From the NCBI RefSeq assembly GCF_024273195.1, contig NZ_JAMZCU010000003.1:582807-646806 (forward strand): a DNA stretch of 64,000 bases. The letters are read 5' to 3'. The notes beneath the pieces are model-generated. The model saw nothing but the letters and a program-made list of their open reading frames with translations. It did no database searches and was not told where the DNA came from. The position numbers and the translations under genes are program-made. Below, piece after piece: positions 50,923-57,602 of this stretch. The stretch comes from Devosia ureilytica. Lineage in GTDB: Bacteria > Pseudomonadota > Alphaproteobacteria > Rhizobiales > Devosiaceae. The stretch's first letter is position 1; each line of letters begins with the position of its first letter.

Positions 50923-53900
50923 ATGTCGATCAAAGCCGCCATCTACCATCTCACCCACTACAAATATGATCGTCCGGTGCACTTGCAGCCGCAGATCATT
51001 CGCCTGCAACCGGCGCCGCATTCGCGCACCAAGGTCCTGAGCCATTCGCTGCGGGTCAGCCCATCGCTGCACTTCGTCAATGTGCAGCAGGACCCCTATG
51101 GCAATTTCCTCACCCGTTTCGTCTTCCCCGAGCCGGTGACCGAGCTCAAGATCGAAGTCGATCTGGTGGCCGACATGACGGTCTATAACCCCTTCGACTT
51201 CTTCGTCGAGGAAAGCGCCGAAACCTGGCCCTTTGAATATCCCGAGGATCTGCGCGACGATCTCGCCATCTACCGGCAACCCGAGCCGGCCGGTCCCCTC
51301 CTGGCGCAGTTCCTGGGCAGTATCGACCGCACACCACAGAACACCGTCACCTTCGTCACAGGTCTCAATGCGCGGCTGCAAACCATCGTCAATTACATCG
51401 TGCGCATGGAGCCGGGCGTCTGGACGCCTGAGGAAACGCTGGGCAATGCCAAGGGCTCATGCCGGGATTCGAGCTGGCTGCTGGTCAATATCCTGCGCCA
51501 GCTCGGCTTTGCCGCGCGCTTCGTCTCCGGCTACCTGATCCAGCTCAAGCCCGACCTCGTCTCGCTCGACGGACCCGCTGGCACCGATCACGATTTCACC
51601 GACCTTCACGCCTGGTGCGAAGTCTATCTGCCCGGCGCCGGCTGGATTGGCCTTGACCCCACTTCGGGCCTCCTCACCGGCGAGAGCCATGTGCCGCTGG
51701 CGGCCACCCCGCATTACAAGAATGCCGCGCCCATTTCCGGCTTCGCCTCCTTTGCCGAAGTCGATTTCGCCTTCGACATGAGTGTGACCCGCGTCGCCGA
51801 GCATCCCCGCATCACCAAGCCGTTCTCCGACGAAAGCTGGCAGCGTCTCAATGCCTTGGGCAAACAGGTCGATGCCAAGCTTATGGAACAGGATGTCCGC
51901 CTCACCATGGGCGGCGAACCCACCTTTGTCTCCATTGATGATTTCGAGGCCGATGAGTGGAATGCCGGCGCAGTCGGCCCGACCAAACGCGGGCTGGCTG
52001 ATACGTTGATCCGCCGCCTGCGCCAGCGCTTCGCGCCCAATGGCATGCTGCATTACGGCCAGGGCAAATGGTATCCCGGTGAAACCCTGCCGCGCTGGAC
52101 CTTCTCGCTCTACTGGCGGCTCGACGGCAAGCCAGTGTGGAAAGACGAAAGTCTGGTTGCCCGTGAAGGGGTCAAGACCAGCGCCACCCACGAAGATGCC
52201 AAGCGCTTTCTCCACGCCTTTGCGCGCAACCTCGGCCTTGGGGGCGATACCATTGCCGAGGCCTATGAAGACCCTGGCCAGTGGCTGCTCAAGGAAGCCA
52301 ACCTCCCGGCCAATGTCGATCCGGCCAATTCCGAGCTTGCCGATCCCGAAGCACGCCTGCGTATCGCAAGGGTGTTCGAGCGCGGGCTGACCAATCCGAC
52401 CGGCTATGTCCTGCCGGTACAGCGCTGGAACGCCGCCGCATCCAGTCCCTGGCTGACCGAGATGTGGAAGACACGGCGCGGCAAATTGTTCCTCGCGCCG
52501 GGCGACAGCCCCGCCGGTTATCGCCTGCCGCTCAGTTCCCTCAAGCATCTCAACGCCACCGATTATCCGCATGTCGTCCCGCTTGATCCGGGAGCACCAC
52601 GCGTACCGCTGGCCGACCCCGACGATCTGCTGGCCTCCCGCCAGACCGGGCTTGAGGCGGACCCTCGCGCGCAGGCCACCACCGATTTTACTGCCGCCAC
52701 CGAGCAGCAGGACATCACCGAGCAGGAAATCAGCGAGATCGAAGGGCAGGTCCGCACCGCCGTCACCGCCGAAGTGCGCGATCACCGCCTCTGCGTCTTC
52801 CTGCCGCCGGTGGAAAAGCTCGAAGATTTCCTCGAACTGGTGGCCGCCACCGAAGCGGCAGCCAAGGAAATCGGCCAGCCCATCCATCTTGAAGGCTATG
52901 CGCCCCCGACCGATCCGCGCCTCAACGTCATCCGCGTCGCCCCCGATCCGGGCGTCATCGAGGTCAATATCCATCCCGCTGCCGGCTGGGACGATTGCGT
53001 TGCCACCACCGAAGCTGTCTATGAGGAAGCGCGCGCCTGCCGCCTCGGCGCCGACAAGTTCATGATCGATGGCAAGCATGTGGGCACCGGCGGCGGCAAT
53101 CACGTCGTCGTGGGTGGCGCAACGCCCCATGACAGCCCCTTCCTGCGCCGGCCCGACCTGCTCAAGTCCCTGGTGCTGCATTGGCAGCGCCACCCTTCGA
53201 TGAGCTACCTGTTTTCGGGCATGTTCATCGGCCCGACCAGCCAGGCGCCCCGCTTTGACGAAGCGCGTCACGACAGTCTCTACGAACTCGAAATCGCCAT
53301 GGCGCAAGTTCCGGCACCAGGCGAAGGCGAGGCACCCACGCCCTGGCTCACTGACCGCCTGTTCCGCAATCTGCTTGTCGATGTTACCGGCAACACCCAT
53401 CGCGCCGAGATCTGTATCGACAAGCTCTACTCTCCCGATGGCCCCACCGGCCGCCTTGGCCTTGTCGAATTCCGCGGCTTTGAAATGCCGCCCAATGCGC
53501 GCATGTCGCTGGCCCAGCAATTGCTGATCCGGGCGCTGATCTCACGCTATTGGGACAAGCCGCTGACCGGCGATTTCACCCGCTGGGGCACCGCCCTGCA
53601 CGACCGCTTCATGCTCTCGAGCTTTGTCTGGCAGGACTTTCTCGGCGTGCTCGCCGACCTGCGCGAACACGGCTTCGATTTCGAGCCTGAATGGTTCGCT
53701 GCCCAGCGCGAATTCCGCTTCCCCTTCTGCGGTGAAGTCAGCGTCGAGGACGTTAAACTCGAGCTGCACCAGGCTCTTGAGCCATGGCATGTGATGGGCG
53801 AACAGGGCGCTATCGGCGGCACGGTGCGCTTTGTCGACTCGTCGGTCGAGCGCCTGGAAGTGCGGCTCGAAACCGCCAATCCAGGCCGCTACATCGTCAG

Positions 53901-54270
53901 CTGCAACCAGCGCCCGGTGCCGCTCAAGCCGTCGACAACCAATGGCACCATGGTCGGCGGGGTCCGCTTCAAAGCCTGGCAGCCCGCCTCCGGCATGCAC
54001 CCGAACCTGCCGGTGCACGCGCCGCTGGTTTTTGACATCTATGACACCTGGACCGGCCGCGCCATCGGTGGCTGCACCTACCACGTTGCCCACCCCGGCG
54101 GCCGCAACTACGAAACCTTCCCCGTCAATGGCAACGAGGCTGAAGCGCGCCGCCTCGCCCGCTTCGTGCCGCACAACCACACCCCCGGCCCCTATCCCCT
54201 TCGCCCCGAAAAGCCTGCGGATGACTTCCCGTTGACGCTTGACCTCCGGCGGCCGCCACGGTTCACGTAA
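50923..54270 (+). CDS. Transglutaminase-like protein with C-terminal DUF2126
   Basis: 1115 residues. Residues 1-90 are a bacterial transglutaminase-like N-terminal beta domain ([22 protein letters not shown]). Residues about 150-260 form a papain-fold transglutaminase core with C180 ([15 protein letters not shown]), H229 ([17 protein letters not shown]) and D245 (LDPTSG). DUF2126 follows (about 290-1115: [97 protein letters not shown]). The ATG at 50923 fits [13 protein letters not shown]. It is the first of three tightly packed genes. Likely cytosolic; it may cleave or make an amide bond on a peptide whose identity is unknown. Confidence 0.92.
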
Positions 54271-54273
54271 TCC

Positions 54274-56685
54274 ATGAATTCGCGGAATCACCAGACCCGC
54301 GGCAAGCCCCCGGCCGGACCCAGCATCATCGCTGACTATCGGCTGCTACCAGGCGTGCCGGACGAGATGATCGACCCGTCCGGCAACATACGCCCGGGCT
54401 GGGACAAGCTCATGTCCGCTTTCGACGCTTTGGGGCCGACCGAGCTGGCCGCCCGCTTCGAGCGTGCCGATCAATATCTGCGCGATGCCGGCGTCTTTTA
54501 TCGCAAGTATGACGGCGCCGAGGGCAAGGAACGGGCCTGGCCGCTGGCCCATATTCCGCTGCTGATCGACGAAGCTGATTGGGTGCAGATTTCCCACGGC
54601 CTGACCCAACGCGCTGATCTGCTCGAGCGCATTGTCGCTGACATCTACGGCAGCAACACGCTGGTCCAGCAAGGCCTGCTGCCGCCCGAACTGATCGCCC
54701 AGAACGGCGAATTCCTCCGTCCCTTGGTTGGGGTGCAGCCGGTCAGCGGTCACTATCTGCACTTTTGCGCCTTTGAGCTTGGTCGCGGTCCCGATGGCGC
54801 CTGGTGGGTGCTGGGCGACCGCACCCAGGCGCCCTCCGGCGCCGGCTTTGCGCTGGAGAACCGCGTCGCCACCACGCGGGCGCTCAGCGATATCTACTCG
54901 GGGCTCAACATCAATCGCCTGGCCGGCTTCTTCCGCGGCTTCCGCGACGCGCTCTTTGCCCAGGCCCGCCGCGACGGGGGCCGGGTTGGCATCCTGACCC
55001 CGGGCCAGCTCAACGAGACCTATTTCGAACACGCCTATATCGCTCGCTACCTGGGCCTCATGCTGCTCGAAGGCGAGGACCTGGTGGTCGAGGATGGCCG
55101 GGTCATGGTGCGCACCGTGGCCGGCCTCAAGCCGGTCAGCGTGCTCTGGCGCCGGCTCGACGCCAGCTTCGCTGATCCCCTCGAATTGCGCTACGACAGC
55201 CATATCGGCACGCCCGGCATGGTCGAGGCCCTGCGCGGTGGGTCGATCTCGATGATCAACGCTCTGGGCACCGGCATCATGGAAACCCGCGCGCTGGCCG
55301 CCTTCATGCCGCGGCTGTGCAAGCATTTGCTCGGCACGGGCCTCGAACTGCCCGAAATCGCCACCTGGTGGTGCGGCCAGGGCGCCGAGCGCGAATTCGT
55401 TCTCGACAATTTCGACAGCCTGATGATCGGCCCGGCCTTTTCGACTGCGCTACCCTTCGACGACCTGCGCGGCACCGCGCTGGGCGCCAGCATGACTGCC
55501 GAACAGAAAGCCGACCTCAAGAACCGCATCGCCGCTGGGGGTAGCGCCTATGTCGGTCAGGAGCCGGTGCGCCTCTCGACCGCCCCCGTCTATACCGATG
55601 GCAGACTCGAACCGCGTCCGATCACCCTGCGCGTCTATGCTGCCCGCACCAACGAAGGCTGGACCATCATGCCGGGCGGCTTCGCCCGCGTCGGCTCCAC
55701 CACCGACACCACCGCCCTCGCCATGCAGCGCGGCGGTCAGGCCGCCGACGTCTGGGTCATGTCCTCCCAGCCGGTCGAACAGGTGTCACTGCTGCCGCGC
55801 GAAGGACAAAAGCTGGTCCGCAACTCGCCCGGCAGTCTGCCCAGCCGCGCCGCCGATAATCTCATCTGGCTCGGGCGTTATGCCGAACGCTGCGAAGCGA
55901 CCGTTCGCATCCTGCGCGCCTACAATGCCCGACTGGCGGAACTGTCCAAACCCGACCTACCGATCCTCGCGCATTGCGCCGCCTTTCTCGAAACCGTCGA
56001 TGTCGATGCAACCGAGGCCATGCCGATTGGCCTCCTCGCCTCCATCGACAGCGCCGTCCATAGCGCCGGGCAGATCCGCGACCGCTTCTCGCCCGATGGC
56101 TGGCTGGCGCTCAACGATCTGCAAAAGACCGCGCAGCGCTTTGCGTCCCGCATCAGCACCGGCGACGATTCCACGCGGGCCATGACCGTGCTCCTGCGCA
56201 AGCTGGCCGGGTTCTCAGGCCTGGTGCATGAGAACATGTATCGCTTTGCCGGCTGGCGCTTTCTCGAACTGGGCCGTCGGCTTGAACGCGCGATCCAGAT
56301 GGCGCGGGTCACCGCCTGGCTGACCGCGCCCGATGCGCCTGATGGCTCGCTCGAAATGCTGCTCGAAATCGGCGACAGCGTCATGTCCCATCGCCGCCGC
56401 TATTCGGTCAGCGCCGGTACCCAGAGCGTTGTCGACCTTCTGGTGCTCGACGCGCTCAATCCCCGCTCGGTGCTGTTCCAGCTGACCGAATTGCGCCACC
56501 AGGTAGAAACCCTGCCCGGCGGCATTCATGACGAACAGCTCTCGCCTGCCGCCAAGCTGGCCCTCGAAATCCACACGGATCTGGTGATTGCCGAACCCGG
56601 CGACATGACGCCCGAAAGGCTCGACGCCCTCGCCAATGACATCGGGATGCTGTCCAGTCTGATCGCTGCGGCCTATTTCACCTGA
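54274..56685 (+). CDS. Circularly permuted ATP-grasp protein fused to alpha-E domain
   Basis: 803 residues. The N-terminal two-thirds (about 1-480, DUF404/DUF407) is a circularly permuted ATP-grasp ligase: YRLLPGVPDEMIDPSGNIRPGWDKL, DAGVFYRKYDG, GVQPVSGHYLHFCAFELGRGPDG, RVGILTPGQLNETYFEHAYIARYLG, VDGRVMVRT-type and VNALGTG-type segments (here INALGTGIMETRALAAFMPRL). From about 523 comes the alpha-E domain (DUF403), starting SRAADNLIWLGRYAERCEATVRILRAY. ATP-grasp enzymes join carboxylates to amines, so it should make a peptide or amide. It starts three bases after the previous stop and ends four before the next gene. Confidence 0.92.
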   Translation: MNSRNHQTRGKPPAGPSIIADYRLLPGVPDEMIDPSGNIRPGWDKLMSAFDALGPTELAARFERADQYLRDAGVFYRKYDGAEGKERAWPLAHIPLLIDEADWVQISHGLTQRADLLERIVADIYGSNTLVQQGLLPPELIAQNGEFLRPLVGVQPVSGHYLHFCAFELGRGPDGAWWVLGDRTQAPSGAGFALENRVATTRALSDIYSGLNINRLAGFFRGFRDALFAQARRDGGRVGILTPGQLNETYFEHAYIARYLGLMLLEGEDLVVEDGRVMVRTVAGLKPVSVLWRRLDASFADPLELRYDSHIGTPGMVEALRGGSISMINALGTGIMETRALAAFMPRLCKHLLGTGLELPEIATWWCGQGAEREFVLDNFDSLMIGPAFSTALPFDDLRGTALGASMTAEQKADLKNRIAAGGSAYVGQEPVRLSTAPVYTDGRLEPRPITLRVYAARTNEGWTIMPGGFARVGSTTDTTALAMQRGGQAADVWVMSSQPVEQVSLLPREGQKLVRNSPGSLPSRAADNLIWLGRYAERCEATVRILRAYNARLAELSKPDLPILAHCAAFLETVDVDATEAMPIGLLASIDSAVHSAGQIRDRFSPDGWLALNDLQKTAQRFASRISTGDDSTRAMTVLLRKLAGFSGLVHENMYRFAGWRFLELGRRLERAIQMARVTAWLTAPDAPDGSLEMLLEIGDSVMSHRRRYSVSAGTQSVVDLLVLDALNPRSVLFQLTELRHQVETLPGGIHDEQLSPAAKLALEIHTDLVIAEPGDMTPERLDALANDIGMLSSLIAAAYFT

Positions 56686-56689
56686 CGCC

Positions 56690-57568
56690 ATGCTCTACGA
56701 CATCCGCCTCACGCTCGAATATGATTATGACGCCCCGGTGCATGGCGGCCGTCACCACATTCGCGTTGCGCCCGCCAACGTGCCGGGCGTTCAGCGCCTC
56801 ATCGCCTCTTCGCTCGCGGTCGAACCGGGTCCGTCGCGCCAAAGTGGCTTTCTCGATTTCTTTGGCAATTCGGTCACCGCCATCACCATGACCGAGCCGC
56901 ATGAGGCACTGACCATTCGCCTCTCCGCACGCGTGCAGGTCGAAGACCTGACCCCGCCCGCCGATCTCTCCCCGCCGCTGCCACAACTGGCGCGCGAGAT
57001 CGCCCAATACTGGTCGATTGCACCAGCCAGTCCGCAGCACTTCCTCGCTGCCTCGCCCCGCATCCAGATCGTGCCTGCCATCACCGACTATGTGCGTGAT
57101 GTGACAAGCGGGGAGCCCACGACACTGTCCATGGCCACCGCCCTTTGCATGGCAATCCACAAGGACTTTGAGTACGATCCCAAGGCCACCGATGTCGAAA
57201 CCCGCCCTGCCGAGGCCTTTGCCCTGCGCAAGGGGGTCTGCCAGGATTTTGCCCATGTCATGATCGCTGGCTTGCGTGGCCTTGGCATTCCGGCGGGCTA
57301 TGTATCGGGCTTCCTGCGCACCAATCCACCGCCCGGAAAGCCGCGCCTGGAAGGTGCCGATGCCATGCATGCCTGGGTGCGCGCCTGGTGCGGGCAGCAT
57401 GTGGGCTGGGTCGAGTTCGATCCCACCAATGCCATGATCGCGGGGCCTGATCACATCTCGATCGGCCATGGTCGCGACTATGCCGACATCTCGCCTATCG
57501 TGGGCGTCTTGCGCACCCATGGCTCGCACGAGACCAAGCAATCGGTCGATGTGCTGCGCGTCGAGTAA
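56690..57568 (+). CDS. Second transglutaminase-family protein
   Basis: 292 residues. The N-terminal beta domain (YDIRLTLEYDYDAPVHGGRHHIRV) is followed by the transglutaminase core with C184 (RKGVCQDFAHVMIAGLRGLGIPAGYVSG), H227 (GADAMHAWVRAWC) and D244 (GWVEFDPTN). DHISIGHGRDYADISPIVGV closes the domain as in the family. It is much shorter than the first protein of the operon and lacks DUF2126. The trio of transglutaminase-DUF2126, ATP-grasp-alpha-E and transglutaminase is conserved across proteobacteria and was described as a predicted peptide-modification system by Iyer and Aravind; its substrate is unknown. Confidence 0.92.
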   Translation: MLYDIRLTLEYDYDAPVHGGRHHIRVAPANVPGVQRLIASSLAVEPGPSRQSGFLDFFGNSVTAITMTEPHEALTIRLSARVQVEDLTPPADLSPPLPQLAREIAQYWSIAPASPQHFLAASPRIQIVPAITDYVRDVTSGEPTTLSMATALCMAIHKDFEYDPKATDVETRPAEAFALRKGVCQDFAHVMIAGLRGLGIPAGYVSGFLRTNPPPGKPRLEGADAMHAWVRAWCGQHVGWVEFDPTNAMIAGPDHISIGHGRDYADISPIVGVLRTHGSHETKQSVDVLRVE

Positions 57569-57577
57569 TCGCGCCAA

Positions 57578-57602
57578 GGAACCAAATCTTCTTCTCTCCG
57601 TT
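57578..57602 (+). promoter_or_regulatory. EcfG-type general stress promoter
   Basis: GGAAC (57578-57582), 16 bases, CGTT (57599-57602): an exact match. It begins nine bases after the transglutaminase stop and lies 71 bases before the small membrane protein gene at 57674. Confidence 0.78.

Follow-up and report, generated by a model that had tools for sequence, protein, structure and literature searches.

In 2009, Iyer, Abhiman, Burroughs and Aravind reportedly predicted a bacterial peptide-synthesis or peptide-tagging system comprising a circularly permuted ATP-grasp, a glutamine synthetase (GS)-like ligase, the Alpha-E domain, a transglutaminase (TG)-like peptidase and an N-terminal nucleophile (Ntn) peptidase. 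The subject here is a tandem of three genes, hereafter the trio, in a stretch of 64,000 nucleotides from Devosia ureilytica (contig NZ_JAMZCU010000003.1, positions 582,807 to 646,806; "the window" is this whole stretch). Gene 1 encodes a TG-like domain fused to DUF2126, gene 2 a circularly permuted ATP-grasp fused to Alpha-E, and gene 3 a stand-alone TG-like protein. The trio shares its domains and operon style with the 2009 system, which supports the original prediction of a ligase-plus-peptidase-like operon of that type, and it is a Devosia-type copy of a bacterial gene set whose kind was already predicted in 2009. In contrast to the predicted system, the Alpha-E-fused ATP-grasp of the trio has degenerate metal and ATP ligands, the genome carries two operons rather than one, and Anbu was not found in it.

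The Anbu operon resembles the trio in having a homologous ATP-grasp (hhalign probability 100%), an Alpha-E protein and a TG. The trio differs from it in its TG-DUF2126 gene, in the fusion of ATP-grasp to Alpha-E, and in the absence of Anbu from 40 trio loci sampled in the order of the window (Rhizobiales). A second operon of the Anbu type, with separate genes for ATP-grasp, Alpha-E and TG, lies elsewhere in the same genome (contig C17, L008:4463-7972) and is called the sister operon below. The system is widespread. No proven product was found in the literature searched, and no proven substrate in the portions of those sources that were available, as the original prediction had held; nor did these portions state that the fused ATP-grasp is dead or that the sister TG has lost its cysteine, the 2009 paper itself lying outside the search.

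Tentatively, and with a probability put slightly below even, the trio is read here as the DUF2126 half of a nitrogen-linked pathway of two operons for making and trimming an amide-linked peptide or polymer. The observations behind this reading are the anatomy of the trio, the pattern of lost and conserved residues, the fold match of DUF2126, the association of traits across genomes and the existence of merged operons; the chemistry, the substrate, the setting in this organism and the direction of flux are what we infer from them. DUF2126, with a GS fold, would activate a carboxyl group with ATP and form an amide bond, perhaps of a gamma-glutamyl-like kind. The TG domain of gene 1 and the free TG of gene 3 would cut or transfer such bonds, and gene 2 would bind the substrate on an ATP-grasp scaffold without ATP chemistry and couple it to Alpha-E. 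The sister operon would contribute another Alpha-E together with an ATP-grasp whose ligands are intact, so that the makers would be DUF2126 and the sister ATP-grasp. The setting would be nitrogen supply, in the building, tagging or salvaging of a nitrogen-rich peptide, and not general stress. Such a scheme moves the role of maker from the fused ATP-grasp to DUF2126 and links two operons, and the other operon may mask the effect of single deletions.

The ATP-grasp domain of gene 2

The structural model of gene 2 (predicted local distance difference test score, pLDDT, 87.6) has a circularly permuted, glutathione-synthetase-like fold. Its best match in the PDB is 3n6x (Foldseek E 1.3e-31), to which residues 30-496 align with E 3.7e-66, and human glutathione synthetase is also recovered (2hgs, E 1.6e-10). 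Fold is what the domain shares with ATP-grasps of the glutathione and glutathionylspermidine synthetase type (3n6x, 2hgs, and E. coli Gss and YgiC). In contrast to these enzymes, gene 2 lacks the metal ligands of the E-x-N (ExN) motif and the Lys/Gly loop: in the window, G181-D-R183 stands where ExN is expected, and the loop is also replaced.

These losses extend across the fused family. A joint alignment was made of 126 fused and 110 stand-alone ATP-grasp rows, in which genomes were not de-duplicated and some loci repeat a genome. In 110/110 stand-alone rows, the E and N of ExN are kept, as are two lysines, one in the Gly-rich loop and one in TKDTW. Among the fused rows, the N, the loop Lys and the second Lys each occur in 0/126, and the E in a single row (L183) that does not keep the N, so that the pair is found in 0/126. 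The first Arg of RR and the Arg of DLR are retained in 126/126 fused rows, and the second Arg of RR in 114/126. Profile-profile alignment of the two kinds lays LEDN over LGDR with no gap. A second alignment that reaches other classes, with 22 fused copies (3 also in the first set) and 8 stand-alone copies, gives a like picture, E and N being absent from 22/22 fused copies and the stand-alone copies being intact in 8/8. The ExN motif presumably corresponds to E330/N332 of E. coli Gss, whose residue letters agree with D318, E330, N332, K498 and K533. E. coli YgiC carries LENN, which is like the ExN motif. The hhalign comparisons of the ATP-grasp profiles with YgiC were not significant (probabilities 0.3% and 0.1%), and LEDN fell on LENN for the stand-alone type only.

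Because the Mg/ATP ligands are lost, the ATP-grasp of gene 2 is predicted to be catalytically dead and to bind substrate without ATP-grasp chemistry; it may have a different chemistry. Weighing against this prediction are the E kept by L183, the K that occupies the loop Lys column in 7/22 fused copies of the second alignment, and the looseness of that alignment around the Gly loop. The original prediction had taken all three active sites of the trio as intact and the ATP-grasp as the maker. It was exact for the two TG proteins, whose Cys-His-Asp triads are the residues it gave (C180/H229/D245 in gene 1 and C184/H227/D244 in gene 3). It was wrong for the site of gene 2, and a maker role for that domain finds no support, the ExN Mg-ligand pair occurring in 0/126 and 0/22 fused rows. 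The gene 1 triad is invariant in a 37-row alignment, and the C, H and D of gene 3 are kept in 40/40 rows (39 relatives and the window).

A model in which the gene 2 ATP-grasp actively makes a small peptide or tag that the two TG proteins edit, as part of a stress response, is very improbable. The intact TG triads are compatible with it, and an ability to release phosphate from ATP has been reported for the ATP-grasp encoded in the Anbu operon of Y. bercovieri (PMC6376114). That assay, however, would concern the stand-alone kind of ATP-grasp, because the same report lists the gene apart from Alpha-E. The model also has to face the missing ExN pair of the fused rows and a stress promoter that reads away from the trio, described below.

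DUF2126 as a candidate ligase

Pfam names DUF2126 a putative amidoligase. An AlphaFold model of gene 1 was built from 37 aligned sequences (mean pLDDT 75), and its matches in the PDB were ranked by Z score as a second look at the candidates of Foldseek, with 50 rows shown. Residues 1-296 match 3isr_A, the best TG-fold chain, at Z 22.6. Apart from TG-fold chains, the matches listed are mostly glutamine synthetases, with about 30 entries at Z 9.3-11.2 and 208-293 residues aligned within model residues 295-1087; YbdK reaches Z 9.0. The likeness of DUF2126 to the GS and YbdK fold is one of structural alignment, and DUF2126 differs from glutamine synthetase in its very low identity (5-13% in the GS rows) and its fusion to a TG. 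We take it to be possibly circularly permuted relative to the GS/YbdK fold.

Given this resemblance of the DUF2126 model to glutamine synthetases, gene 1 is likely to encode an amide ligase of a second type, and by this structural comparison DUF2126 is a better candidate for the ATP-dependent maker than the ATP-grasp of gene 2. The scheme of one maker and two editors in the original prediction had passed over this amidoligase-type domain, which both the Pfam name and the fold match bring forward. Less favorable to the assignment are the ranking by Foldseek alone, in which the first GS appears at rank 41 (E 0.12), and the moderate confidence of the DUF2126 model.

The sister operon and cysteine loss

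The residues of the sister operon form a counterpart to those of the trio. The ATP-grasp encoded there keeps the E, N and Lys; in the TG, an Ala occupies the position of the catalytic Cys, and the His and Asp of the triad are conserved. No Anbu follows this TG, and none was found in the genome of the window with a dedicated Anbu profile at E 1e-20; nor, as noted above, was any found in the 40 trio loci. PF00227 was rejected as a test for Anbu, giving one match of HslV size even where the Anbu profile finds Anbu (e.g., G058), and the dedicated profile was therefore used. The only PF00227 match in the genome of the window is presumably HslV, from a reading of its sequence. By the Anbu profile, Anbu occurs in 94/150 genomes of the order. 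In many other genomes it follows a sister-type TG, as it does in the published Anbu operon, to judge from the parts of two reports available (PMC6376114, PMC5666114).

Cysteine loss in the sister TG is associated with DUF2126. The TG was readable in 97/109 genomes of the order with an ATP-grasp match, 12 being dropped for contig ends or because no TG was found. The Cys is lost in 18/53 genomes with DUF2126 vs 0/44 without (Fisher 6e-6, a value that ignores kinship). On a tree of the ATP-grasp (96 rows, G134 left out), the losses are 8 events, all in DUF2126-positive clades; placing 8 events at random gave this outcome in 2-3 of 20,000 trials. Outside the order, loci were obtained for 30/40 genomes with a match, a sister TG being one with a stand-alone Alpha-E and a stand-alone ATP-grasp beside it. 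The count, over 16 genomes less that of the window itself and with G042, a member of the window's order, left out, gives Cys loss in 3/4 genomes with DUF2126 (G188, G241 and G192; G228 kept it) vs 1/11 without (G161). Genome G161 gave no match to DUF2126 but does contain a fused gene 2 together with a gene 3 that is intact. Because it has both genes without DUF2126, the presence of gene 2 plus gene 3 may be the better predictor of Cys loss. Every Cys-less sister TG read, within the order or outside it, comes from a genome that carries either DUF2126 or gene 2 plus gene 3.

The ratio of nonsynonymous to synonymous substitution rates (dN/dS) was compared between the genome of the window and G005. 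It is 0.21 for the Cys-less TG and 0.04-0.10 for five other genes of the two operons. By this measure, the Cys-less TG is still under constraint, well below neutrality. A further proposal, possible but doubtful, is that the paralogous operons decayed complementarily into one pathway and that both dead copies, the gene 2 ATP-grasp and the sister TG, would persist as substrate-binding pseudoenzyme scaffolds needed beside a GS-fold ligase.

Some genomes carry the two systems in merged or adjoining form. In family f44 (3 genomes read), ATP-grasp, Alpha-E, TG-DUF2126 and the fused gene 2 lie on one strand, and the sequence beyond is cut. Among 14 loci of other classes read with 1.5 kb flanks, the fused gene adjoins DUF2126 in 10; in the other 4 (L342, L353, L354 and L355), all of family f173, which lies outside the class, Anbu directly follows TG-DUF2126. 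A sister-type TG with its Cys kept directly precedes DUF2126 in L343, and Pseudooceanicola pacificus (L139) has the trio and the Anbu operon side by side in divergent orientation. The trio stands as an operon, as the original prediction had described it; as a system it may not be whole, given the sister operon in the same genome.

Several results tell against a functional link between the two operons. An independent-pairs test was not significant (median p 1), with too few informative pairs: 12 supported pairs differ in DUF2126, and on average 1 of them differs in Cys, with none in the opposite direction. A looser criterion outside the order, accepting one neighbor, reduces the contrast to 3/6 vs 1/12 by adding G153 and G184 (DUF2126, Cys kept) and G190 (no DUF2126, Cys kept). 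Genome G161 has lost the Cys without having DUF2126. A published pull-down gave no specific interactions among the proteins of the Anbu operon, as far as the available part of the report goes (PMC6376114).

These points bear on an explanation that appears unlikely, though it deserves weight, in which the two operons are independent and the Cys loss is lineage drift that fell by chance in DUF2126-bearing families. Cys state and DUF2126 both cluster by family, the sign test on independent pairs is not significant, and the dN/dS of the Cys-less TG is raised, all as drift would have it. However, the confinement of 8 events to DUF2126-positive clades is rare among random placements, the trend recurs in other orders, merged operons exist, and the Cys-less TG evolves well below neutrality. 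An "inactive transglutaminase" reported in vesicle formation (PMC12096838) is a protein fused to seven membrane helices and does not belong to this operon.

Regulation and nitrogen

Published evidence on relatives points, as far as the available parts of the reports go, to nitrogen limitation. One NtrC/sigma54-dependent cluster, in B. cenocepacia H111, comprises DUF404/407, DUF403, TG and a large TG-like-domain protein; it falls 6.0 to 9.4 fold when ntrC is mutated and appears in a list together with genes for urease, nitrate reductase and urate oxidase (PMC5491218). The large TG protein of this cluster would correspond to TG-DUF2126. Anbu is raised in nitrogen-limited P. putida (PMC5666114), and marine metagenomes show an association with urea domains (PMC3597751). 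Sigma54-like sites scoring at least 9/10 precede 18/109 sister-type operons (e.g., L233, L238 and L254) vs 1.7% of shuffles; the shuffles keep single-base composition only, and the genomes are related, with a few repeated, and not independent.

The same observations favor a catabolic alternative for nitrogen-limited cells, in which TG-like amidases or isopeptidases release amino groups bound in proteins or gamma-glutamyl compounds, and the part of the ligases is confined to activating or re-capping the substrate. Activation of the B. cenocepacia cluster by NtrC/sigma54 alongside urease, nitrate reductase and urate oxidase genes, the rise of Anbu in P. putida, the urea-domain association and the sites before sister-type operons would all suit it. 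However, DUF2126 trios show no excess of sigma54-like sites (at least 9/10 before 2/119 DUF2126 genes vs 1.0% of shuffles), and scavenging of this kind is considered quite unlikely. The same count counts against the nitrogen link of the two-operon reading, as does the window, where the best sigma54-like site before the trio scores 6 of 10 and none lies above background; nitrogen control of the trio itself is not supported.

The original prediction had drawn a hint of a stress role from a general stress promoter at 57578. The element exists (GGAAC-N16-CGTT), 9 bases past the last base of the trio. Because it is downstream on the same strand, it reads away from the trio and points to the next genes, and a stress role by way of this promoter is rejected. 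This element recurs 6 to 31 bases past the end of the last TG in 5/5 Devosia-type loci checked (L121, L122, L123, L163 and L067). No match to the EcfG-type promoter consensus was found in the 117 bases that separate gene 1 from its upstream neighbor. The window holds five EcfG-like matches vs 1.3 expected, and four of these lie within about 6 kb downstream of the trio (57578, 58233 and 63636 on the plus strand, 62322 on the minus strand). A general-stress gene cluster may lie beside the trio, not in it.

Gene anatomy and distribution

Features of the trio are collected in the table. The trio lies exactly where the original prediction placed it, with the spacing given there (3 bases between genes 1 and 2, and 4 between genes 2 and 3), and all three open reading frames are on the plus strand. 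Pfam domains of all three genes score above cut-off, those of gene 2 being CP_ATPgrasp_2/CP_ATPgrasp_1 and Alpha-E; NCBIfam gave no family at E 0.001 for any of the three proteins.

Table. Positions of the trio genes and their domains, in coordinates of the window.
Feature	Position	Strand	Basis
Gene 1 (TG-DUF2126, 1115 residues)	50923..54270	+	Open reading frame; Bact_transglu_N + Transglut_core + DUF2126
Gene 1 TG core, residues 137-246	51331..51660	+	PF01841, E 6.9e-14
Gene 1 DUF2126, residues 278-1109	51754..54249	+	PF09899, 1315 bits
Gene 2 (circularly permuted ATP-grasp type 2 fused to Alpha-E, 803 residues)	54274..56685	+	Open reading frame, Pfam
Gene 2 ATP-grasp domain, residues 95-473, predicted inactive	54556..55692	+	ExN replaced by G181-D-R183; Lys/Gly loop replaced
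Gene 2 codons of G181-D182-R183, at the position of the E-x-N metal-binding motif	54814..54822	+	
Gene 2 Alpha-E helical domain, residues 522-802	55837..56679	+	PF04168, E 1.2e-60
Gene 3 (stand-alone TG-like protein, 292 residues)	56690..57568	+	Open reading frame; Bact_transglu_N + Transglut_core

DUF2126 occurs in 63/150 genomes drawn from the order, 17/115 of a class-wide draw and 84/299 of a phylum-wide draw. Among 14 control genomes, Synechococcus elongatus alone gave a DUF2126 match. A sample of 40 relatives from the order has DUF2126 and the ATP-grasp/Alpha-E gene in 40/40 and the last TG in 39/40 (none was found in L071), in the same tandem order. The complete trio is found in 71/80 named loci, and five others (L142, L150, L159, L172 and L178) are cut by a contig end. 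Because it is near-complete both in the sampled relatives and in the named loci, the conservation of the trio is far beyond chance. Four loci (L125, L146, L148 and L179) have DUF2126 alone, the other two genes not being found despite about 10 kb of downstream sequence.

The original prediction had proposed a search for genes always adjacent to the trio. Clustering of the flanks of 120 loci revealed no neighbor that accompanies it beyond close relatives, and for this reason the trio looks like a self-contained unit. Of the flank clusters listed, the larger ones that include distant members are scattered in position, and most of the remainder are confined to close relatives. A protein downstream in 13 loci is presumably Tad/pilus-like. 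Upstream in the window, a gene for an FGGY pentulose kinase (TIGR01315, 49219-50805) ends 117 bases before gene 1, with no link to the trio seen.

The genome of the window is 3.8 Mb in 20 contigs and 99% complete. Its nearest three named loci are from Devosia, with a gene 1 identity of 84-85% (best segment). Split frames occur in two of the 40 sampled loci of the order, L059 and L073; in the latter (L073:10615-13999, genome G021), DUF2126 extends over two frames, through either an assembly error or a real frameshift.

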